From the NCBI RefSeq assembly GCF_000377905.1, contig NZ_KB898877.1:62001-126000 (forward strand): DNA of 64,000 bases, read 5' to 3'. The notes under the pieces were generated by a model that worked only from the letters and a program-made list of their open reading frames with translations, did not search any database and was not told the DNA's origin. This stretch comes from Thioalkalivibrio sp. ALMg11. GTDB lineage: Bacteria; Pseudomonadota; Gammaproteobacteria; Ectothiorhodospirales; Ectothiorhodospiraceae. A program made the translations under genes and the position numbers. Shown here one piece after another: positions 4,409-16,099 of this stretch (positions within the stretch are counted from its first letter, which is position 1; each line of letters starts with the position of its first letter).

Positions 4409-5755
4409 TCAGCCCTGGCGACCGGTATCCGACGACAACCCGAGACGCTTCATGCGCTCCCATAGATTCTTGCGGCTGATGCCCAGGTTGGCCGCCGTAT
4501 TGGCGATATGGCCATCGTGTAACTCCAGCGCGCGCAGGATGTAGCTTTCCTCGCAGACCTGCAGGTACTGACGGAGGCGCGCGCCTTCCGCATCATCCCC
4601 CGTGGAGGGTTCCTCGCCCGGTTCGTCGAACAGGCTGTCGGCCTGCAGATTCGGGCCGGGGCTCATGATGCAGGCACGTTCGATCGCGTGCTTGAGTTCG
4701 CGGATATTGCCCGGCCAGGGGTGGCGCAGCAGCGCGTTTTCCGCGGCGGGCGTGAGCATCTTGCGCGGCTCCCCGTGCTCCCGCGCGTACCCATCAAGGA
4801 AACGCCGTACCAGCCAGGGAATGTCCTCCGGGCGCTCGCGCAACGGCGGGATGCGCAGGTGGATCACGTGGATACGGTAGTAGAGGTCCTCGCGGAATTG
4901 CCCCTCGCGCACCATCTGCAGCAGATCGCGGTGGGTGGCGCAGATCAGACGCAGCTCCACCGGGATGGCCTTTTCCCCGCCCACCCGCACGATCTGGCGC
5001 TCCTGGATCGCGCGCAGGAGCTTGACCTGCATGACCGGCGGCATATCCCCCACCTCGTCCAGGAACAGCGTCCCACCATGCGCCTGCTCGAAAACGCCCG
5101 GGCGCGCCCGCACCGCACCGGTGAAGGCCCCCTTCTCGTGGCCGAACAGCTCGGCCTCCAGCAGGGTCTCGGTCAGGCCACCGCAGTTCACCGGCACGAA
5201 GGGCTGATCCGAACGTACCGGGTCGAGGCGGTGCAGCTCGCGCGCCACGGCCTCCTTGCCAGTGCCCGACTCGCCGGTAATCAATACGGTGCTGGCCTGT
5301 TCCGCAAGCCGTCCCAGCAGCGCGGCGATGCGTCTCATCGCGGCCGAGGTACCCAGCGTGGTCTCGCCCGAGGCATCCTCGCCATGGTCGCTGGCCAGAT
5401 CCGCGACCTTGTCCACCAGTGCATCGAGATCGAACGGCTTGGTGATGTAGTCGGCCGCCCCGCGCTTGAGCAGCGCCACGGCGCGATCCACCGCGCCGTA
5501 GGCGGTGATGAACAGCCAGGGTGCCTGGACACCGTGGGCCTCCTGCCACTCCAGGAACAACTCGTCGCCATAGCCATCGCCCAGGCGAATGTCGCTCAGG
5601 ACGACCGCGTAGCCACCCCTTGCCAGTTGTTCCCGAGCCTTGGCAATGCTCCGGGCCCAGTCCACTGCATAGCCTTCCAGCTCGAAGCGATCACACAGGG
5701 ATTCGCCCATGATCTCGTCGTCCTCGATCAGGCACAGGAGCGGACGTTCGTTCAT
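4409..5755 (-). CDS. arxR: ArxR-like sigma-54-dependent response regulator
   Basis: 448 residues with the NtrC layout. The receiver domain has the acidic pocket E11-D12-D13 and phospho-acceptor D55. The AAA+ domain has Walker A GESGTGKE at 161-168 and the sigma-54 contact loop GAFTGA at 209-214. A Fis-type helix-turn-helix lies at about 420-445 (IANTAANLGISRKNLWERMK). Its ATG overlaps the kinase stop as ATGA, and GGGGAGAG precedes it, so the kinase and regulator are coupled. It is the natural activator of the sigma-54 promoter found upstream of arxB'. The ArxR name rests on cluster context; the NtrC-type call is secure. Confidence 0.88.
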   Translation of the reverse strand: MNERPLLCLIEDDEIMGESLCDRFELEGYAVDWARSIAKAREQLARGGYAVVLSDIRLGDGYGDELFLEWQEAHGVQAPWLFITAYGAVDRAVALLKRGAADYITKPFDLDALVDKVADLASDHGEDASGETTLGTSAAMRRIAALLGRLAEQASTVLITGESGTGKEAVARELHRLDPVRSDQPFVPVNCGGLTETLLEAELFGHEKGAFTGAVRARPGVFEQAHGGTLFLDEVGDMPPVMQVKLLRAIQERQIVRVGGEKAIPVELRLICATHRDLLQMVREGQFREDLYYRIHVIHLRIPPLRERPEDIPWLVRRFLDGYAREHGEPRKMLTPAAENALLRHPWPGNIRELKHAIERACIMSPGPNLQADSLFDEPGEEPSTGDDAEGARLRQYLQVCEESYILRALELHDGHIANTAANLGISRKNLWERMKRLGLSSDTGRQG

Positions 5756-7254
5756 GAGCTCTCCCCTTCCGACAATGGCAACGTCACCTCGAAGATGGTC
5801 ACCGATTCGTTGCTTGTCACCTCGATCTGTCCGTCCAGTTGCTGGATCAGCTGGTACGTCACCCAAAGCCCGAGGCCATGCCCCTCGCCGCTGCTGGTAG
5901 CGAATGGCTCGAACAAGTGGGCCATGCGTCCGCGGCTGATGTGCTTCCCCCCGTTGGAGATGGCAGCGTGGAAGAAGCGGTTGTCTGCCCGCAGCCAGCA
6001 GAGCACCTCGCCGCCCTCGTCGCTCGCCTGCACCGCATTCAGCAGCAGGTTCAGCAGGACCTGGCGCACCTGGGACGACGGCAGCGCCACCGGCGCATCG
6101 ATCGCATTGTCCCAGACCAGGCGCAGCCCCTTGCGCTGGATGTCCGGCTGCACCAGCGTGCGGATATCCTGCAGATCATCCGGTGTCAGCGCGTGACTCT
6201 CCAGACGCGCCTCCACCAGCAGTGCCCCCACCGTGCCCTTGATCTGGACCAGACCGCGCTCCAGCAAGGAGATCGTGCGATCCGCCACCGGGTCGCGCTC
6301 GTCGCCATGGCGCTTGTAGGTGCTGATCGCGTTCAGCATGCCACCCAACGGGTTGTTGATCTCGTGGGCGATACCCGCGGTAAGACGCCCGACAGCCGCG
6401 AGCCGCTCGGAGGCCACCATGCTGCGTTCCAGCTCCTCCTTCTCGCGCAGCTCGTCCAGCATGCGCCGAAAGCGGTACGAGACCTGACCGATCTCGTCCC
6501 GCCCATCGTACAGATCGCACTGGATATCACTGGGCACCTCGGTCCCCACCCGCCCCATGCAGGCAGACAGGTGTGCGAGCGGATCGGTCAGGCGTTTACC
6601 CCAGTACCAGCCGAGCGGTAGCAAGATGACCAGCACCAGCAAGGTTCCGAGGATGACTTGTTCCAGCGCGTTGAGGAACCGTGGCACAAGCAGGGCGCTG
6701 GAATAACTCAGGACCAGGGTCCCCAGGGGGGCCGAGTCCTCCGCAAGGATCGGCACTACCATCACGTAACGTCCGGGCCAGACATCATCGAACACCACCG
6801 GGCGTCGGTCGTCACGGGCCTCGATCCGACGCACCAGCTCCGCATGTTCGGCGCCACGCCGGGCCAGCTCGTCCAGCATCGGGTATTCCCGTGGACGCGA
6901 CGCCACATACACCCGGCTCCGCGTATCCAGTACATAGATTTCGCGTTCGGGCTTGCCCTCAACCGGGATCGCGGGCTGCTCGCCCTGCTCCACCGCGTAC
7001 TGCCAGCCGGCATCCCTCTCCAGGGGCGACATGATCGTCTCGTACGCCATCCACACCTCGTCCCGCTTCATTGCCGGACGCAGGGTCTGGCTGAGGACCG
7101 TCCCCAGGTCGAGAGCATTCGAGATCAGATCATCGCGACTGTCCTGATACGCCCGCACCAGCAGCACACTGGACAGGATCAGCGCCGTCAGCAGGATCAC
7201 CAGCACCGCGCTCAATGGCGTCTTGACCCTGTAGCTGAGGTTCCGAAGTCGCAT
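5752..7254 (-). CDS. arxS: ArxS-like sensor histidine kinase
   Basis: 500 residues. TM1 is at about 12-34, a periplasmic domain of roughly 160 residues follows, and TM2 is at about 198-217. A HAMP linker leads to the phospho-acceptor helix AHEINNPLGG with H297, and then the ATPase domain with NLLLNAVQ and GHGLGLWVT boxes. It lies 1 nt from arxX upstream and overlaps arxR downstream, giving a three-gene signalling unit. It would autophosphorylate and pass phosphate to D55 of the regulator. The periplasmic domain probably contacts the ArxX binding protein (inference from binding-protein/kinase pairs such as TorT-TorS). Confidence 0.87.
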   Translation of the reverse strand: MRLRNLSYRVKTPLSAVLVILLTALILSSVLLVRAYQDSRDDLISNALDLGTVLSQTLRPAMKRDEVWMAYETIMSPLERDAGWQYAVEQGEQPAIPVEGKPEREIYVLDTRSRVYVASRPREYPMLDELARRGAEHAELVRRIEARDDRRPVVFDDVWPGRYVMVVPILAEDSAPLGTLVLSYSSALLVPRFLNALEQVILGTLLVLVILLPLGWYWGKRLTDPLAHLSACMGRVGTEVPSDIQCDLYDGRDEIGQVSYRFRRMLDELREKEELERSMVASERLAAVGRLTAGIAHEINNPLGGMLNAISTYKRHGDERDPVADRTISLLERGLVQIKGTVGALLVEARLESHALTPDDLQDIRTLVQPDIQRKGLRLVWDNAIDAPVALPSSQVRQVLLNLLLNAVQASDEGGEVLCWLRADNRFFHAAISNGGKHISRGRMAHLFEPFATSSGEGHGLGLWVTYQLIQQLDGQIEVTSNESVTIFEVTLPLSEGESS

Positions 7255-7255
7255 C

Positions 7256-8095
7256 TCAACCGCGTTCGACGTGCCGCATTAAACGTTCGATACCGGTATA
7301 CAACTCGGCGTCCGGGTCTCCGAAGCCGTCCAGATAGAATTGCTCCAGCAGGGCTCTTCCCTGCCCCGAACCCTGCATACCTTGCAAGGCATCCCGAAAC
7401 CGTCCCCGTAACTCGGGATCGACGCCGTTCCGGGCGACCACCGGGGGAAACCCGTAGGTCTCCGAGCGCCAGATGATCCGGGTGCGTTCGGTCAATTCCG
7501 GATGCAGACGGGCCAACGCGTCATAGACATACCCGTCGACCGCCCCGCCATTCGCCAGGCCCACCGCAACCGCCTCGATCACGTTACGGTGCGCACCGGC
7601 AAAGAAGGTCCGTGCAAAGAAGCCCTCGGGATCATGACCGGCGGCAAGCAGCCGGGCCTGCGGCACCAGCCACCCCGAATTCGACAGCGGATCGGAAAAG
7701 GCAAAAAGCCGCCCTTCCAGATCCTCGAGGGTCTCGGTCCGGGCATCATCCGCCCCGACGATCAGGTACGAACGGTACAAGGGTTCGCCCTGATAAATGG
7801 GCACCGTCAGCACATCCATATGCTCCCGATAGCGGACATACGGATACCCGCAGAGCCAGGCAAAATCCACACGCCCATTCAGGACCAGTTCGGTGATCTC
7901 GCGATAGTTGCCGCGCTGGACGAACTCCACCGACCTGCCAAGCCGTTCCTCCAGGTACCCCTGCCAGCGATTCAGGAAGGTCTGGTCGTTCAGAAACACC
8001 GGCGTCAGGCCAATCCGCACGGACGACCGCGCCGTTGCCGCCCCCGAAATCCCCGGTGCGAGGAACACCAACCCCAGAAAGTTGCGGCGCTTCAT
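7256..8095 (-). CDS. arxX: ArxX-like periplasmic binding protein (PhnD family)
   Basis: 279 residues of the phosphate/phosphonate-type ABC substrate-binding fold: VRIGLTPVF at the first strand, VDFAWLCGYPYV, FSDPLSNSGWLVPQ, and a YVYDAL segment. The N-terminus MKRRNFLGLVFLAP is a Tat-like or Sec signal ending near SGAATARS. No permease or ATPase genes lie nearby and the kinase gene follows directly, so it is more likely a signal-sensing accessory than a transporter part. ATG at 8095 was picked because the signal peptide begins there; 8128 is an alternative. Ligand unknown: an arsenic oxyanion is the obvious guess but nothing in the sequence proves it. Confidence 0.82.
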   Translation of the reverse strand: MKRRNFLGLVFLAPGISGAATARSSVRIGLTPVFLNDQTFLNRWQGYLEERLGRSVEFVQRGNYREITELVLNGRVDFAWLCGYPYVRYREHMDVLTVPIYQGEPLYRSYLIVGADDARTETLEDLEGRLFAFSDPLSNSGWLVPQARLLAAGHDPEGFFARTFFAGAHRNVIEAVAVGLANGGAVDGYVYDALARLHPELTERTRIIWRSETYGFPPVVARNGVDPELRGRFRDALQGMQGSGQGRALLEQFYLDGFGDPDAELYTGIERLMRHVERG

Positions 8096-8176
8096 ACGAC
8101 GTGCCCTGCCTCCGAGGTTGCCTAGCATTGGCAGTATATCAACCCGCTTACCCCGAGCCTTCGAGGCCGGTCGACC

Positions 8177-9112
8177 CTACATCTGCTTGCGGGCGCTTTC
8201 CGGGAGCTTGACCTTCATCCGGCTCAGGCCCATCTCGCCGTCCCGACAGTTCGGACAGACATACATGTGATCGGTCGCCAGACCCCGCTCCTCCAGTTGC
8301 CGCACCATAAAGGCCAGGTCTCCGCTGGGAATGAAATCTGCTCCGCATACCCGACACGCGGCCGGCCCGGTCTCGATCTCCTGGTCGCCCTCGGGCATCC
8401 GCGCCCGAACCACCTCTTCCAGTGAAGGCTTCGCGGCTACCGAAACCTCCTGCTCGATTACGGGGGCGATTCCTTCCAGGCACTCGGTCACTTTCGACAC
8501 CAGACCGCGCAGTACGATGGCCAGGCGTCGATACCCCTCGGCGGCGGGGGCATGCCCCACCGCCTCGTCCAGTTGCCGTTGGAAATTCGGTAACCATGGA
8601 TTCAGAAACCGGCGGACGAAATTGCCGGCCTCCGCCGCGATCCGTTCGCGCTCCTGCTGGTCCTCGGCATCCGCCGCAAGCCCGAGCAGGTAACCCACAA
8701 ACTGCAGTTGCAGGGCCAGATGATCCGGCAAATCGCGAAAATCCGGATCCCGTGCAAGCCCGTAGCGCTGATAGAAGGCTTCCATCTCCACTGTGGACGA
8801 GCCCATCAGGCTGCCCTGGAGCTGAATCCCGGCGTTCAGGGGAGCCGGAAATGGCGGTGAAAGAAACAACCGGCTGTAGATGCGCAACAGCCCGCCCTCC
8901 GTGTCTCCTGTTTCGCGCAGGGCGTGCTGCAGCCCGTCCAGGTCCTCTTGCGCGGCGAAATTGAGTTCACTGTTCAGCGCCTGCAAGTCCTCGATCAGGG
9001 GCCCCTGCATCGCCTCGACCCGGGTGCGATCGCGCGGTGGCAAAAAGGCCTGCCCCAAACAGAGCATGGCCTCACCAAGCGGAAGCAGGGATGGATTCTC
9101 CGTATCGTTCAT
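8177..9112 (-). CDS. arxD: ArxD-like TorD-family chaperone with zinc-ribbon tail
   Basis: 311 residues. The central helical region (about 10-215) matches TorD/DmsD chaperones that load molybdenum cofactor and proofread Tat export of the catalytic subunit, with RIYSRLFLSPPFPAPLNAG and QLQFVGYLLGL. It is about 100 residues longer than a typical TorD. The extra C-terminus has paired cysteines C253/C256 (CRVC) and C286/C289 (CPNC), a likely zinc ribbon. TAGGAG lies 5 nt before ATG 9112. As the last structural gene after arxC it fits an assembly factor for ArxA. Confidence 0.82.
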   Translation of the reverse strand: MNDTENPSLLPLGEAMLCLGQAFLPPRDRTRVEAMQGPLIEDLQALNSELNFAAQEDLDGLQHALRETGDTEGGLLRIYSRLFLSPPFPAPLNAGIQLQGSLMGSSTVEMEAFYQRYGLARDPDFRDLPDHLALQLQFVGYLLGLAADAEDQQERERIAAEAGNFVRRFLNPWLPNFQRQLDEAVGHAPAAEGYRRLAIVLRGLVSKVTECLEGIAPVIEQEVSVAAKPSLEEVVRARMPEGDQEIETGPAACRVCGADFIPSGDLAFMVRQLEERGLATDHMYVCPNCRDGEMGLSRMKVKLPESARKQM

Positions 9113-9193
9113 GTCGACTCCTAGGTCGCTGCTACGGCTTCCCGCAAGTGGTTTCACCGTCGGGCATTCATATCCGAATCACAACGGAAAACG

Positions 9194-9247: not shown

Positions 9248-10456
9248 TCAGGAACTGACGGTCGCCTGTCGGCCGCGCACGGACTCATCGCCCGCAAACG
9301 CCATCGGGCTGTCGGAAAGATTGAACAGGCGTTCACCCAGGGCATACAGGGCGAAAACCAGCGCAATACCCATCACGGTCAGCACCCATTCCATGGGGGA
9401 TGGGGCATATTCCACCAGCCCCCGCTCCCAGGTTCCCTTGAATAGCGGGACCACCTGGCCACCGACCACGAAGTACAGCCGCTCGATGAAGATTCCGACC
9501 AGCACCAGGATGGCCGCCAGCATCTGGACACCCGGCGCGTTGCGCATACCCCGCGCCAGCAGCAGCACGAACGGCAGCAGGATTCCACCCCACACCGCGA
9601 AGTGGAACCAAGCGGAAGCCAGCAGATACTCGCTCCACACCACGTTGACCTCGGGTGCATTCGCGTACAGACCGGTCGTCATCCGGGACAGGAACAACAC
9701 CAGCGTGATCCCGGCCAGCGACAGAAACAGCTTCGGCAGTGGGCCCTCGACATCCATGCGCAGAGCCTCGGGCATACGCGAACGATTCATGCCGTAGGAA
9801 AGATGGGTGAAGAACACCAGCGCCGCGACACCCGAGAGCGCCGCCGTGGCGTAGAACCAGACCGGCAAGGTCGGATCGAACCAGAACGGCCGCATGCCCA
9901 TCATCCCGAACACCAGCGCAAGCGTACCGGCCGCCAGTAGTACGGCGATGAACGATGCGATCCCGAGCTGGCGGCTGAGCCAGCTGGTCCAGTCGCCCCG
10001 TTCCATCATGTGGAACTTCCAGGCCATGAAGATCAAATCCAGGAGGTAGAACACCCCCATCCAGAACATCGCGGACTCGATCTGCAGGTTCAGCGGGATC
10101 GCCCACAGCATGCGGAAGGTGTGACCCAGCTCCATCGCAAGCACTGCGAGGCCCGCCACCAGCGTTACGATCGCGAGCCAGATGGCCCGCTTGATCAGCG
10201 GATAGTACTGCTTGAAGCCGAACACCATGGCCAGTGCGGCAATCAGGGTCAGCCCCGAGGACATCAGGGCGAAATAGACATAGGTGGCGATCGGCAGCCC
10301 CCATGCCACATTGGCGTCCATGTTGAAGGCCGCATGGCCCCGAGTGAGCAGGGCAAATGCAACGATGGCGAACGTCACGACCGCAATGACGCCCCCCACA
10401 ACAAGCATGCCCGTCATCAGCCCCGTGTTCTTGCGATCAATGGTATCTGCACTCAT
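9248..10456 (-). CDS. arxC: ArxC-like NrfD/PsrC membrane subunit
   Basis: 402 residues, very hydrophobic, with about ten predicted membrane helices (for example near 15-37, 52-75, 88-108, 163-185, 270-300, 352-375). It matches the NrfD/PsrC family of quinone-interacting membrane anchors, with PIATYVYFALMSSGLTLIAAL and FHFAVWGGILLPFVLLL. In the complex it would exchange electrons between the iron-sulfur subunit and the membrane quinone pool. It lies 12 bp after arxB in the same operon. Which quinone is used cannot be told from the sequence. Confidence 0.88.
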   Translation of the reverse strand: MSADTIDRKNTGLMTGMLVVGGVIAVVTFAIVAFALLTRGHAAFNMDANVAWGLPIATYVYFALMSSGLTLIAALAMVFGFKQYYPLIKRAIWLAIVTLVAGLAVLAMELGHTFRMLWAIPLNLQIESAMFWMGVFYLLDLIFMAWKFHMMERGDWTSWLSRQLGIASFIAVLLAAGTLALVFGMMGMRPFWFDPTLPVWFYATAALSGVAALVFFTHLSYGMNRSRMPEALRMDVEGPLPKLFLSLAGITLVLFLSRMTTGLYANAPEVNVVWSEYLLASAWFHFAVWGGILLPFVLLLARGMRNAPGVQMLAAILVLVGIFIERLYFVVGGQVVPLFKGTWERGLVEYAPSPMEWVLTVMGIALVFALYALGERLFNLSDSPMAFAGDESVRGRQATVSS

Positions 10457-10468
10457 GACTTCTCTCCC

Positions 10469-11215
10469 TTAGGATTTCGGCTGGAACGCGGGGATACCGG
10501 CGCCGGCACCGAGGTAGTAGACCTGCGGACGGTTACCGGTGTGATCCTTTAACCGAATCCCTTTCTTGTTCGCGATCAGCTTGTTCACGTTGCTGTCCGG
10601 GTTATCCAGATCGCCAAAGAAACGTGCCTTGGGCGGACAGGTCCGCACGCAGGCCGGCACGTAGTCGACCAAGTCCGGATCGTCCTCGTCGAGGTCCGGA
10701 ACACCTTCCGGTGCCTTGCTCACGCGGTGGTAGCAGAAGGTGCATTTCGACACCACGCCTTTCGGCTGGACGCCAATGCCACGCCTCGGGTCCTGATCCG
10801 GACTCTGGCCCGGCGGATCCCAGAGCTGCCCGCCACTGCCGGGAAAGACCTCCTTGAGGTCCGGCTCCACCAGGGGGGCCTCGTCGGCGAAGAAGCGCAC
10901 GCCGTAAGGGCAGGCGATCATGCAGTACTTGCAGCCGATGCACTTGTCCCAGTCGATGAACACGATGCCACCGGCGTCGGGATCCTTGTAGGTCGCCCGG
11001 GTGGGGCAGACGTGCACGCAGGACGGGTCCTCGCATTGCATGCACGGCCGCGGCAGCCACTTCATCTGGCCGCTCGGGTACTCCCCTTCGGTGTAAAACA
11101 GCACGTCCTGCCAGTTCTCGCCGGGCAGGGTGTCGTTCTCCATGCCACAGGCAGTGGTACAGGCCTGGCAGCCAGTACACTTGTCGAGGTCAATGACCAT
11201 TCCCCACTTTGCCAT
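10469..11215 (-). CDS. arxB: ArxB-like four-cluster iron-sulfur subunit
   Basis: 248 residues of the DmsB/PsrB-type ferredoxin subunit. Cysteine groups for four 4Fe-4S clusters are visible: CTGCQACTTAC near the N-terminus, CMQCEDPSCVHVCP, CIGCKYCMIACP and CTFCYHRV with CVRTCPPKA. No signal peptide is seen, so it is probably exported with the Tat-carrying ArxA. It would carry electrons between the molybdopterin subunit and the NrfD membrane protein. It sits 40 bp after arxA. Confidence 0.9.
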   Translation of the reverse strand: MAKWGMVIDLDKCTGCQACTTACGMENDTLPGENWQDVLFYTEGEYPSGQMKWLPRPCMQCEDPSCVHVCPTRATYKDPDAGGIVFIDWDKCIGCKYCMIACPYGVRFFADEAPLVEPDLKEVFPGSGGQLWDPPGQSPDQDPRRGIGVQPKGVVSKCTFCYHRVSKAPEGVPDLDEDDPDLVDYVPACVRTCPPKARFFGDLDNPDSNVNKLIANKKGIRLKDHTGNRPQVYYLGAGAGIPAFQPKS

Positions 11216-11255: not shown

Positions 11256-13766
11256 CTAGACCCGTTCCACATCCACCTTGCCGGTGTAGTAGGCAACCAG
11301 GCCGGAGATCGGATCCGACACGTTGGCGGTAATCTCGTTGGGGTTCCCGGGCGCCACCGAGCGCTCCTGCGCCTCGGCCCAGCGACCCTGCGCCCAGTGC
11401 CCGTGTTCGTACGGCAGCACAATGGTGTCCGGGCGATTCTGGGGCATGAAGCGGACATAGCCTTCGATGGTCCCGAGATCCGCGGTGATGCGGACCCGAT
11501 CGCCATCCCGGATCCCGCGTTCACGTGCGGTACTCGGGTGCATCTCCACGTAGGTGCGATCATTGCCCCCGACGCTCGGCTGCATCAGGGCAATGGCGTG
11601 CGGGATGTTGCCGCTTCGCCCCTCCGCAGTCATCGGGGTCTTGGGCGTCACGAAAAAGAGGTCGCGGTTACCGCCCGTGTATTCGGGCGCCACCCATTGC
11701 GGGAACCCGACGCGGTCACGGTCCACAGCCAGATGCTGCGTGATGTAGTCAGCCTGTTCCTCGAGATGCGAGGACTTGAACTCGAACTTGCCGGACTGGG
11801 TGCGCAGCAGCTTTTCCCCGACCTCCTCTTCGGACATCTCGCGGTTGTAGCCGTCACCATCCCACTCGAGGAACACACCCCGGTGCTGTTTCCAGTGATA
11901 CGGCTTCTTGTACCAGACACCCTTCTCGACCCAGGACTCGTAACTGTCGACACCGTTATCGCCCGGGTCGTCCTCGAAGCCCCGCGCCAGGTGACGCAGG
12001 AGGTTCTCGACGCTGTCGATCTGACGGTAGTAATCGCCGGTCGGCCCGTTAATGCGCTTGCCGATCTCGATCATCATGTTGCCGAACTCGGTGGTGTCGT
12101 AGAGCGGCTCAACCGCCGGCACCCGCAGCGCGGTCATCGGCCAACCCTCGAACGGATAGGTTGGCGAGTCCTGCAAGCGTTCCAGATAGGTGGATTCGGG
12201 CAGGATCAGATCGGCGAACTTCGCCGTTTCCCCCGGGTAGGGCGAGGTATCCACCACGAAGATCTCGCTCATCATCTTTTCCCATTCCGGCGCATCCGGC
12301 GCGGTCCAGATGGGGTTGGTGGTGTAGAACATCGCCATCTTCAGCTTGTAGGGGTCGCCGGCGTTATGGTTCTTCGCCGTTTCCTGCATCATGGTTCCGG
12401 CAAACGGCCACCGTTCAGTCCCCGCCATGTCGATCCGGGGATGCCTGCCGGCCATATCGCGCGCGATATCGTCCATGTAGTCGCCCGCATCGGCCGGGCC
12501 CGAGCCATAGGACGGCCCCATCTGGTAGAACAGCCCCCCTTCGGCGAACATCGCGCCAGACAGCGCGTTCAGGGCGTGAATGGCCATCCCGTTGTACACA
12601 CCATTGGTATGCGAAGTCGGGCCGCGTTCAAAGACCGCCATCGCCGGTCGGGTGGTACCGAATTCGCGCGCGGTCTTGAGGATGTCACTGGCTGGAATGC
12701 CGGTGATGCCTTCCGCCCATTCGGGGGTGCGGTCCTTCAGTTCGGCGTTCCACCAGTCGGCCAGGCCGAGCGTCCACTTCTCCTCGAACCGGTTGCGACT
12801 CACGTGCTGCCCGGTACGGAACCGGTTACGACCGTCGTCGAAGTCGCCCACGAACTCCCGGTCCCAGAGACCCTCGGTCAGCATCACATGGGCAATCGCC
12901 AGGGCCAGGGCCCCATCCGTTCCCGGTTTCACCATCAAATAGCGGTCGGCGGCCGCCATGGTCGGATTCATCCGCACATCCACCGCAGTGACCTGGGTGC
13001 GCGGGCTCTTGCTGCGCATATGTCCCCATACCTGCATCAGGTAGTTGTAGGGACGGAAGGCCTCCAGGAAACTGGCCCCGAAGGTCAGCAGGTAGTTGGC
13101 ATTCTTGTAGTCATAAGAGTTGTACGAATTGTTGCCGTCAGTGGCGGCCTTGGCCCGCTTCGACCCCTCCGCGCACATCGAGGCGTGCCCGATGGCGGAA
13201 TTCGGCGTGCCGACCAACTGCCCGAACGCGCCGTACAGCCCTGCATCACTCGGGCCCCAGCCACGCCCGTAGAAATGCGCGATCTTGTGCGCCTCACCGT
13301 TCTCGCGCAGTTCATTGATACGGGTGGCGATCTCGTCATAGGCCTCATCCCAGGAGATCGGCTCCCAGCCAGGATCCTCGTTCCGGCCCTTTTGCGGATT
13401 GGTTCGCCGCATCGGCCCCTTGAACCGGTCAGGGTCATACAGGAAATAGGTTCCAAGATGGCCCTTGGGACAGAGCTTGCCGTTCGCGATCGGATTGCCC
13501 GGGTCGCCATAGATGGAGGTCACGCGGCCGTTATGCGTGTACACGTTAATTCCGCAACGGGCCGGGCACTGGTGACAAATATTCTTGGTCACCTGGGCAT
13601 CCGCAAAGGTCGCGGCGCTCGCGGTACTGGTCACACCCGCCGATCCCGCGGCGGCCGTGAATCCGGCCAGTTTGCCCATGCCGGCAACCCCCGCCACGGC
13701 CCCGGTCGCACCGGTGGCCTGCAGAAATCGCCTGCGGTTCAGCATTTTTTCCAGGATGGCTTTCAT
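11256..13766 (-). CDS. arxA: ArxA-type molybdopterin arsenite oxidase
   Basis: 836 residues, DMSO-reductase family. A twin-arginine signal is visible: NRRRFLQATG then a hydrophobic alanine/glycine stretch. The 4Fe-4S site is C64-x2-C67-x3-C71-x27-C99 and the probable molybdenum ligand is C198 in HASMCAEG. Residues 166-171 read YGRGWG; the literature I recall distinguishes ArxA (xGRGWG) from the arsenate reductase ArrA (RGRY), so the arsenite-oxidising direction is favoured. ArxA oxidises arsenite to arsenate in the periplasm, usually under anoxic conditions. The ATG overlaps the arxB' stop by 4 nt (ATGA). Other family members (TtrA, PsrA) were considered; the motif and the B'ABCD-XSR gene set fit Arx better. 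Confidence 0.85.
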   Translation of the reverse strand: MKAILEKMLNRRRFLQATGATGAVAGVAGMGKLAGFTAAAGSAGVTSTASAATFADAQVTKNICHQCPARCGINVYTHNGRVTSIYGDPGNPIANGKLCPKGHLGTYFLYDPDRFKGPMRRTNPQKGRNEDPGWEPISWDEAYDEIATRINELRENGEAHKIAHFYGRGWGPSDAGLYGAFGQLVGTPNSAIGHASMCAEGSKRAKAATDGNNSYNSYDYKNANYLLTFGASFLEAFRPYNYLMQVWGHMRSKSPRTQVTAVDVRMNPTMAAADRYLMVKPGTDGALALAIAHVMLTEGLWDREFVGDFDDGRNRFRTGQHVSRNRFEEKWTLGLADWWNAELKDRTPEWAEGITGIPASDILKTAREFGTTRPAMAVFERGPTSHTNGVYNGMAIHALNALSGAMFAEGGLFYQMGPSYGSGPADAGDYMDDIARDMAGRHPRIDMAGTERWPFAGTMMQETAKNHNAGDPYKLKMAMFYTTNPIWTAPDAPEWEKMMSEIFVVDTSPYPGETAKFADLILPESTYLERLQDSPTYPFEGWPMTALRVPAVEPLYDTTEFGNMMIEIGKRINGPTGDYYRQIDSVENLLRHLARGFEDDPGDNGVDSYESWVEKGVWYKKPYHWKQHRGVFLEWDGDGYNREMSEEEVGEKLLRTQSGKFEFKSSHLEEQADYITQHLAVDRDRVGFPQWVAPEYTGGNRDLFFVTPKTPMTAEGRSGNIPHAIALMQPSVGGNDRTYVEMHPSTARERGIRDGDRVRITADLGTIEGYVRFMPQNRPDTIVLPYEHGHWAQGRWAEAQERSVAPGNPNEITANVSDPISGLVAYYTGKVDVERV

Positions 13767-15040
13767 AGATTCTCCTCCACTCCCTTCAGCTCTTCTCGTG
13801 GCCCCGTGCCGGCGTGGCCCGGAGGTGTTTCGTCGCGACCCGGGGCGACGGCGGCGTCCCGGGAATGCTCGGCGGGCTTTCCGAACAGCAGCTCGTAACC
13901 GCCATCCGCCAGTAGCCCGTATTTCTTCGCGCAGGACGCGCAGAGCCCCTCTTCACGATTGCCGGGGCAGAACGCCCGGCATTCGCGGCAGTACTGATGC
14001 GCATGCCGGATCAGCGGCCCGGACACACCGTCCTCGGGTGCCAGTTCCAGCGCCCGTTCCGGGCACACGCGGACACACAGCTCGCAGGCGATGCAATCCG
14101 CGGGCTCGAAATCGAGTCCACTCCCGTCCTCGTCGTTGACCGCCCGGAGCGCCCCGGTCGGACAAAGCGACGCGCACACGCGCTGGTTGCAACAACGCGA
14201 TTCGTCCACACCGAGGCGGGGAGCCATCGACGCCGGAACCGTGCTCGCGAACGTCCCTACCGCCCGCGACAGTCGCTGGCGCGGCAGGGCCGCGATCTTG
14301 TCCACCAGGGGACGCGTTTCCGCGGCGCCCTCCGCAGGGGCATCCAGACCGGCGCCACTCAGTGCGCCACCCGCGGAGCGTCCCGCCATCTGCCGGAACA
14401 ACTCCCGTCGGCCGAAGCGCGTCTCGCATTCGGGCAACGGAATCGATTGGCTCGTCGCCCGGCGCGCCGCCAACGGCCGATCCTCTACCCGGGGCCAACG
14501 ATGCGGCGGGGCCCCCGCCGACTCCAGAGCAGACGCAGCAACGGCCACCGACTCCGCCATCGGGACGGGTTGCCCCCCGGCCGGACAGGATTCGCACCAG
14601 CCGCGGTTGATCAGCACGAGGGGCGCACCACGCAGGGCCGACAATTCGGCCAGGGTGCCGCTGTCCAGGCCCGCCAGACAGGGAACCCGCAATGCCCCAC
14701 TGTCCATGGCCTCGCGCGGGACGCGCCAGCATTCGACCGGCAACTCTGCCGCGCTGTCCTCGACCGGACCGTCCAGGTTCTCGGAACGCGGGAATCCGCT
14801 CACACGCAGCGCTCCAGTGGGGCACGCCGCGGCACACTGGCCGCAACGCAGACAGGTGTCCGCAAGCGTGAGCGTTCCCCTTGCGCCTTCCAGTGCGTCC
14901 GCCGGGCAGGCATCGGCGCAGTCGCTGCACCGCGACAGCGGCGAACGCCCGGGAAGACAAGCGGAAGCCAGAAACGCCACCTCGGGGATATCCGGGTGCA
15001 AACGCTGATAGGCATGCTGTGGTGCGGTGGTTTCCCGCAT
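13763..15040 (-). CDS. arxB': ArxB'-like multi-cluster ferredoxin protein
   Basis: 425 residues, first gene of the arx operon. Ferredoxin-type cysteine groups occur at both ends: CSDCADACP and CLRCGQCAAACP near residues 38-75, and CNQRVCASLCP and CIACELCVRVCP near 285-340. Further pairs CRECRAFC and CASC follow. The middle (about 90-275) has no recognised domain. No signal peptide or membrane helix is visible, so its cellular side is unclear. In described arx clusters a gene at this position is called arxB'; a role in electron transfer or maturation is inferred from position. GGGGGATTGA precedes the ATG at 15040. Confidence 0.8.
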   Translation of the reverse strand: MRETTAPQHAYQRLHPDIPEVAFLASACLPGRSPLSRCSDCADACPADALEGARGTLTLADTCLRCGQCAAACPTGALRVSGFPRSENLDGPVEDSAAELPVECWRVPREAMDSGALRVPCLAGLDSGTLAELSALRGAPLVLINRGWCESCPAGGQPVPMAESVAVAASALESAGAPPHRWPRVEDRPLAARRATSQSIPLPECETRFGRRELFRQMAGRSAGGALSGAGLDAPAEGAAETRPLVDKIAALPRQRLSRAVGTFASTVPASMAPRLGVDESRCCNQRVCASLCPTGALRAVNDEDGSGLDFEPADCIACELCVRVCPERALELAPEDGVSGPLIRHAHQYCRECRAFCPGNREEGLCASCAKKYGLLADGGYELLFGKPAEHSRDAAVAPGRDETPPGHAGTGPREELKGVEENL

Positions 15041-15131
15041 TCAATCCCCCAGGTTGGGACCGGACTCACCGGATGTCGGCGACCATGGCAGGCCGCTTCA
15101 CGGCCAGCGTCTCGGTTATATAGGGATCGAG

Positions 15132-15148
15132 TTGCAAAGCGTGTGCCA
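15132..15148 (-). promoter_or_regulatory. Sigma-54 promoter of the arx operon
   Basis: Read on the minus strand the site is TGGCACA-CGCT-TTGCA, against the sigma-54 consensus TGGCACG-N4-TTGCA: one mismatch, with the invariant GG and GC correctly spaced. Transcription would start near 15120, leaving an 80-nt leader before arxB' at 15040. The operon's own NtrC-type regulator is the expected activator. Confidence 0.85.
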
Positions 15149-15224
15149 GATCACGCCAGAAGCCTCCCATCGGCCACCTGACGGGCTCCGGCAACGACGC
15201 GCCGGACTTGCGGCGCGCAGCCTT

Positions 15225-15240
15225 GTTACCCAGCGGTAAC
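15225..15240. promoter_or_regulatory. Upstream activator dyad 1 (probable ArxR site)
   Basis: Perfect dyad GTTACC-CAGC-GGTAAC. Its centre lies about 86 bp upstream of the -24 element of the arx promoter. The same half-sites and 4-bp spacer recur 43 bp further upstream. The position and pairing are typical of enhancer sites for NtrC-family activators. Confidence 0.7.
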
Positions 15241-15266
15241 GGTTTCGAGATTTCCAGCTCAGAAGT

Positions 15267-15284
15267 GGTTACCGGTTGGTAACC
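15267..15284. promoter_or_regulatory. Upstream activator dyad 2 (probable ArxR site)
   Basis: Perfect dyad GGTTACC-GGTT-GGTAACC, centred 43 bp (about four helical turns) from dyad 1, which places both on one DNA face. It shares the GTTACC-N4-GGTAAC core with dyad 1. Confidence 0.7.
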
Positions 15285-15419
15285 CCGAGTGGGTCCGTCC
15301 ACGCGGCCGCTCAGGCCGTAGCGGAAATGGCCCACAAATCGGCGACCCAAAATCTGTGTCGTAGCGCCTTGTGGCGATGCCGGTGGCCTCAGGACGTATC
15401 CCGGATACCGTTACATGGC

Positions 15420-15535
15420 CCGATGGTTGCTAGGGACACTGCAGGCGACGGCATCCCTAGCCGAACGCCCATGTGCATCTCCGGCGTGCTTCCAACGCCA
15501 CCTCTGTTGGGCCGGCCTGGCGCCGGCCCTTTTTT
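15420..15535 (+). ncRNA. Candidate structured small RNA ending at a terminator
   Basis: Three consecutive stems precede a T-run. GCTAGGGA/TCCCTAGC are at 15429-15436 and 15454-15461. GGCGT/ACGCC are at 15483-15487 and 15495-15499. The terminator GGGCCGGC/GCCGGCCC follows at 15509-15529 with six T. No protein gene on the plus strand ends here, so the terminator needs another transcript. The 5' end is undefined and no known RNA family was recognised. Confidence 0.4.
15509..15535 (+). terminator. Intrinsic terminator upstream of the FKBP gene
   Basis: Eight-base-pair GC stem GGGCCGGC (15509-15516) with GCCGGCCC (15522-15529), loop CTGGC, followed by a T6 run. It reads on the plus strand and lies 105 bp before the FKBP start. 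Confidence 0.75.
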
Positions 15536-15640
15536 ATATGTTTTGTTTGAGGGGTAGCGAGTCGCTACCGCCGCGCACGGCAAAGGCGTGGCCGCAGACC
15601 GAGAGCCTCCGAAATATTTTTCGCATGGGAGAGAGATAAC

Positions 15641-16099
15641 GTGATACCGGGAACCATTGCACGCGGCCAGGCCGTGACCCTGCTGTACACGGTTCGCGAC
15701 GATGCCGACGGCAGCCCACTGGACGACTGGCTGAAACATCCCGCGGACGAGCCGATACGCTATGTGCATGGCCAGGAGGACGCCGGCCTGCCCGGTCTGG
15801 CGCCCGCGCTACAGGGGATGCAGGCCGGCGACCGGGGTAAACTCACCATTCCGCCGGTGCTTGCCTTCGGCGAACACCGGCCGGAATTGGTCTTCGAAGC
15901 CGTACGCGAGAATCTGCCCGACAACATCGCACTGGAACCGGGCCAGCGGCTCTACAGCCGTGGCGAACAGAATGTCTTTCAATTGAAGGTCGTTCGGCTT
16001 ACCGAGAAGGGCGCGATCCTCGACGGCAATCATCCGCTGGCCGGGCGAACCCTGTGCGTGCAGTACCAGATCCTGCAGGTCGACAATGCCGAGGACTGA
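15641..16099 (+). CDS. FKBP-type (SlyD/FkpB-like) peptidyl-prolyl isomerase
   Basis: 152 residues. The N-terminal half has the SlyD/FkpB pattern: VTLLYTVRDDADGSPLDD, then GLPGLAPALQGMQAGDRGKLTIPP, followed by an inserted flap before the final strand. It would speed proline isomerisation and act as a chaperone in the cytoplasm; no signal peptide is visible. It lacks the histidine- and cysteine-rich metal-binding tail of E. coli SlyD. The start is GTG at 15641 with GGGAGAG 8 nt upstream. It is convergent with the hemerythrin gene. A link to arsenic enzyme folding is only positional. Confidence 0.82.
   Translation: MIPGTIARGQAVTLLYTVRDDADGSPLDDWLKHPADEPIRYVHGQEDAGLPGLAPALQGMQAGDRGKLTIPPVLAFGEHRPELVFEAVRENLPDNIALEPGQRLYSRGEQNVFQLKVVRLTEKGAILDGNHPLAGRTLCVQYQILQVDNAED

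Follow-up and report, generated by a model that had tools for sequence, protein, structure and literature searches.

Paired dyads upstream of a sigma-54 site in the arx cluster of Thioalkalivibrio sp. ALMg11: a very probable ArxR switch with a probable second, divergent output

The 64,000-nucleotide stretch of the Thioalkalivibrio sp. ALMg11 genome analysed here (the window) carries an arx gene cluster, contiguous on the minus strand. Its first gene, arxB′ (arxB2; 13763–15040), encodes a ferredoxin-like protein recognised by its 4Fe-4S domains and its homologues. It is followed by arxA (11256–13766), for the molybdopterin arsenite oxidase subunit, arxB (10469–11215; 4Fe-4S domains), arxC (9248–10456; NrfD), arxD (8177–9157; a TorD-like chaperone, PF02613), arxX (7256–8128; a periplasmic arsenite-binding sensor, PF12974), arxS (5752–7254; a sensor histidine kinase) and arxR (4409–5755), the product of which is an NtrC-family response regulator with the recognition helix SRKNLWERM. 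The arxR start was set at the ATG overlapping the arxS stop; an open reading frame at 8148–8597, considered for arxD, is in the wrong frame. ArxA shares 96% identity with its counterpart in Thioalkalivibrio strain AKL19, and the position of arxXSR downstream of arxB2ABCD has been described as an exception of strains ALMg11 and AKL19 (PMC6549141). An earlier reading of this DNA, based on the sequence alone, had placed an NtrC-family activator in the operon, and ArxR indeed carries receiver, Sigma54_activat and HTH_8 domains; the domains of ArxS and ArxX add the sensor kinase and a PhnD-like arsenite-binding protein.

Upstream of arxB′, a sigma-54 (−24/−12) site, TGGCACACGCTTTGCA, occupies positions 15148–15133 of the minus strand and matches TGGCACG-N4-TTGCW at all but one position. 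The arxB′ ATG at 15040 is about 94 bp downstream of the −12 GC, and a transcript start is expected near 15122. Beyond it are two perfect copies of GTTACC-N4-GGTAAC: one proximal to this promoter (15225–15240, GTTACCCAGCGGTAAC) and one distal to it (15268–15283, GTTACCGGTTGGTAAC), the nearer to the divergent promoter considered below. The distance between them is 43 bp, or some four turns of the helix. Both the one-mismatch site and the spaced pair of dyads had been noticed by the sequence-only reading and were recovered exactly. The sigma-54 match is not significant by itself, since sites with at most two mismatches numbered 11 in the 64-kb window against 11.05 expected. Perfect GTTAC-N6-GTAAC cores occur three times in the 3,037,788-bp genome, and two of the three lie upstream of arxB′; the genome has a single sigma-54 gene (rpoN). 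When the window was aligned with two related loci, L008 and L013, 81–90% of columns were invariant in the dyads and in a plus-strand sigma-54 site, 78% in the arxB′ promoter, and 11–49% in the adjoining and intervening non-coding sequence. In NtrC-type enhancers, a −24/−12 site is preceded by paired dyads that occupy the same side of the helix, and the dyads found here share this arrangement.

Conservation was examined in 40 loci found via ArxA, together with arx loci from further genomes and plasmids; 41 arx promoters were readable. The GTTAC dyad was present in 35 of them, mostly in two copies and across three proteobacterial classes, so that the dyad conservation by which the sequence-only reading had proposed to be judged is there. 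Three more promoters carry a GTTCGG-type operator and three carry neither. A count over 27 non-redundant regions covered every gapped palindrome built of 5-bp half-sites separated by 0–12 bp, 13,312 in total. GTTAC-N6-GTAAC ranked first (23 of 27 regions), the next-ranked palindromes were shifted forms of it, and the best unrelated one was found in only two regions. The promoters with neither operator are those of two Halomonas-group loci (L020, L021) and of L028, and their genomes lack an ArxR orthologue and have just general NtrC relatives (39–45%); the palindromes are thus absent where the regulator is absent. At L018, where the dyads are kept, ArxR is encoded on another contig. Because most arx clusters repeat this layout and it is lost where ArxR is missing, the dyads and the sigma-54 promoter upstream of arx very probably form, as judged from these comparisons, an ArxR switch closely related to that of AioR.

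The ArxR/AioR comparison also links the operator to the regulator: helices of the form RK[NST]LWE go with GTTAC operators and RTTLWE with GTTCGG operators. The alphaproteobacterial arx clusters L022, L024 and L134 have GTTCGG-N4-CCGAAC and an ArxR with the RTTLWE helix; a reading of L022 and L024 as operator-less was rejected, since both belong to this class. RTT helices and GTTC sites likewise occur together in six aio clusters (L139, L140, L141, L146, L147 and L149), and the GTTCGG type is the one DNase-footprinted with AioR (PMC5335332). RK helices accompany GTTAC sites in the Rhodospirillales-type alphaproteobacterial arx clusters (L040, L043, L046), in the arr cluster L135 and in the Hydrogenophaga aio cluster L138, so that the operator tracks the helix rather than the enzyme or the class. 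In L145 the helix is unreadable. The change of helix and operator is a single switch on the tree and therefore counts as one event. As a side observation, L135, on a plasmid of Azoarcus sp. KH32C, is apparently an arsenate respiration (arr) cluster, with AtoC-type XSR genes, a dyad pair and a sigma-54 site.

The dyads probably also face a second promoter. A divergent sigma-54 site, TGGCCCGATGGTTGCT, again with one mismatch, lies on the plus strand at 15416–15431, and from it a transcript start is expected near 15442. Like the arxB′ site, it has GG-N10-GC close to TGGCACG-N4-TTGCW at a conserved place. A candidate short RNA or attenuated leader would extend from 15442 to 15537 on the plus strand, with a hairpin at 15483–15499 and an intrinsic terminator at 15509–15535 (eight G-C pairs, then T6) that is kept in L008 and L013. 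The sequence-only reading, right about the dyads and the arxB′ site, had overlooked both this second site and the terminator. Downstream, also on the plus strand, an arx-cluster gene (15641–16099; FKBP_C domain) encodes an FKBP-type peptidyl-prolyl isomerase, the nearest solved structures of which are SlyD. The candidate RNA is about 95 nt long; its 3′ part is 86% invariant among the three sequences, it folds with a z of −2.4, and covariation, in three sequences only, is weak, with one compensatory change and two that allow G-U pairs. It has no Rfam match. A short open reading frame was rejected, as the alignments of the window, L008 and L013 contain no conserved start codon. So was pairing with the arxR start region, which involves 11 of 12 positions in the window, is lost in L008 and L013 and lies in kinase coding sequence; no conserved target was found.

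FKBP homologues are present in 17 of the 40 arx loci, commonly after arxD, and close orthologues within the genus are confined to arx genomes. The best argument for including this gene among those controlled by ArxR comes from the independent arrangement in T. halophilus, where FKBP and the arxX, arxS and arxR genes that follow it share a strand, and where FKBP is equipped with a separate dyad pair (43 bp) and a sigma-54 site 68 bp away. In one metagenome-assembled genome (G021), the FKBP region on contig C33 (L085) is seemingly identical to that of G015, whereas C96 of G021 bears a different, divergent copy; C33 is therefore probably bin contamination.

The plus-strand element might instead have nothing to do with ArxR, the sigma-54 match being fortuitous and the conserved stretch belonging, as terminator or leader, to an FKBP promoter of the ordinary kind. 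One single one-mismatch site is expected by chance, the element is carried by three close genomes only, the dyads are at least 133 bp from it at a distance that differs by 8 bp between L008 and L013, and the terminator precedes the FKBP gene. Against this, the site is 90% invariant in the three genomes compared with 31% in the spacer toward the dyads, a search of the region for a sigma-70-like promoter found none, within the genus the divergent element occurs only with arx, and the FKBP gene is arx-linked, with the T. halophilus arrangement just described. We regard this alternative as doubtful but a real possibility. We consider that the arx dyads probably also serve the divergent promoter.

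The distance between the proximal dyad and the sigma-54 site falls into classes of 58–60, 69–71, 80–82, 92, 102–104 and 111–114 bp, about one helical turn apart. Over 22 non-redundant promoters, phasing reached R = 0.86 at 10.95 bp, a value attained by none of 20,000 null sets. Dyad pairs are 42–45 or 31–34 bp apart across clusters; the exceptions are L127 and L128 (64 bp, six turns) and L043 (90 bp), and these three dyad-bearing loci are also those without a recognisable sigma-54 site. Such quantised spacing could have been inherited by chance from common ancestors and not reflect any need for helical phasing, as 8 of the 22 values are 69–71, many loci are related and few independent indels could yield the pattern. 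The classes nevertheless recur over gamma-, beta- and alphaproteobacteria, the 13 distinct spacing values taken alone are still phased (0 of 20,000 null sets), and aio promoters fit as well (67–68 and 80 bp); an accident of descent is thus unlikely, and we retain helical phasing. Bending of the short spacer by IHF was considered and rejected, the sites showing no enrichment (mean best mismatch 2.79 versus 2.94). Unlike NtrC-type enhancers generally, the proximal ArxR dyad lies only 58–114 bp from the promoter element and moves in helical steps from cluster to cluster.

These observations lead us to propose, with high confidence, that the two dyads are the ArxR enhancer (UAS) in an ArxX-ArxS-ArxR arsenite switch of the sigma-54 promoter. 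Arsenite bound by ArxX would activate ArxS, which would phosphorylate ArxR. ArxR dimers would then occupy the two dyads, which share one helix face, and form an AAA+ oligomer; acting through a short DNA loop in helical phase, this oligomer would open the promoter at 15133–15148 for transcription of arxB′ABCD. As arxXSR lies 3′ of arxD on the same strand, ArxR may raise its own synthesis; if arxB′ to arxR form one transcript, ArxR would be autoregulated. The same dyads probably serve the promoter at 15416–15431, which would give the short terminated RNA, and read-through past the terminator would supply the SlyD-like FKBP. Several points count against ArxR control: the single helix-operator event on the tree, the deviating loci L043, L127 and L128, the lack of IHF enrichment, and the report that in Tv. 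jannaschii exposed to arsenite in air arxB2 mRNA was up and arxABC mRNA was not (PMC6620896).

The composite reading goes further. In it, a single ArxR dyad pair activates the arsenite oxidase operon on one side and a divergent sigma-54 transcript on the other, spacing is held to whole helical turns, and two recognition-helix residues set the operator class. We advance it tentatively, giving it somewhat less than an even chance. If it holds, the divergent transcript would be a small RNA, about 95 nt long and induced by arsenite, read-through would provide a dedicated SlyD-like FKBP maturation factor, and whole-turn distances between enhancer and promoter would be kept throughout the ArxR/AioR family.

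The nearest known system is AioXSR/aioBA of Agrobacterium GW4 and 5A and Rhizobium NT-26 (PMC3834237, PMC5335332), which like ArxXSR combines three-component arsenite sensing with an AtoC/NtrC-type regulator. In 2013 a pair of palindromes was reported to precede aioB and to be confined to cases with aioXSR (PMC3834237), and an AioR footprint followed in 2017 (PMC5335332). In both systems two palindromes of the form GTT-N10-AAC lie upstream of the −24/−12 promoter of the oxidase operon and occur only with XSR. The alphaproteobacterial AioR proteins compared have RTTLWE, GTTCGG and paired dyads 33 bp apart, whereas ArxR has here RKNLWE, GTTACC and 43 bp; furthermore, the enzyme is Arx and a divergent second sigma-54 site is present. 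For Alkalilimnicola ehrlichii MLHE-1, an ArxR/RpoN site upstream of arx was predicted in 2018 (PMC5908839), with the same regulator and promoter type. As given in that paper, from which alone MLHE-1 was taken, the site (gtaacaattcaagc) is a single half-matching sequence proposed by homology to NT-26, whereas a full paired palindrome is defined here from many clusters. The idea of an ArxR-controlled sigma-54 promoter, which the sequence-only reading had also reached, is right in substance, but the concept was already published; the role of ArxR has been described as not demonstrated (PMC6683785, PMC6549141). Our literature search, of incomplete coverage, returned no earlier report of the exact ArxR operator, its phasing, the helix code or a divergent promoter with FKBP, and the exact operator, the family-wide phasing, the helix-operator correspondence and the divergent promoter with FKBP appear new. 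By its sequence features, the system belongs, as an ArxR-type representative, to the AioR kind of sigma-54 switch, and a second, divergent output is probable. The rule would predict the operator from the regulator (RK helix, GTTAC; RTT helix, GTTCGG). Together with the spacing rule and two candidate new ArxR targets, the FKBP chaperone and the short RNA, it makes Arx arsenite sensing testable by a few promoter fusions.

It is very improbable that the dyads are operators of another regulator, shared for instance with sulfur-oxidation genes, with ArxR binding elsewhere: a perfect dyad does lie upstream of an hdrC-like gene in the same genome, without a sigma-54 site, and this element is kept in genomes lacking arxR, but it is a single copy with the genus consensus GTTGCC-N4-GGTAAC or variants in a different context, whereas the dyads of arx come in pairs, keep helical phase with sigma-54 sites, disappear together with ArxR and change class when the ArxR/AioR helix does. 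The "regulon" of the sequence-only reading was too broad, because the motif in this genome marks one intergenic region only and the third perfect dyad (L001, 1501–1516) is the genus-wide hdrC element, independent of ArxR. Control of sulfur oxidation by ArxR through hdrC and tusA dyads was likewise rejected, as the former is genus-wide without arxR and the latter is not conserved. Weak dyads did not reveal a wider regulon either: among the 12 places with at most one mismatch there was no further pair, and 27 places matched the control pattern, which was the motif reversed. The dyad with one mismatch at C1:142944 falls within an L004 open reading frame.

Some further occurrences were recorded. 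In 25 Thioalkalivibrio genomes (L059–L083), with or without arx, GTTGCC-N4-GGTAAC or a close variant precedes the hdrC-like start by about 91–101 bp, and this palindrome is followed by a TAGAC...GTCTA-like element. Aromatoleum/Azoarcus clusters contain an additional perfect core dyad within arxB2 itself, in coding sequence about 720 bp upstream of arxA (L030 9281, L031 5279, L032 7939, L034 9276 and L036 9290; a variant form at L037 9278). Finally, a possible further ArxR target occurs in G016 (L052/L130): a SAM-dependent methyltransferase gene close to arxR has upstream of it dyads at L130 10146 and 10189, 43 bp apart, together with a sigma-54 site (TGGCACATGGCTTGCT) that has one mismatch.
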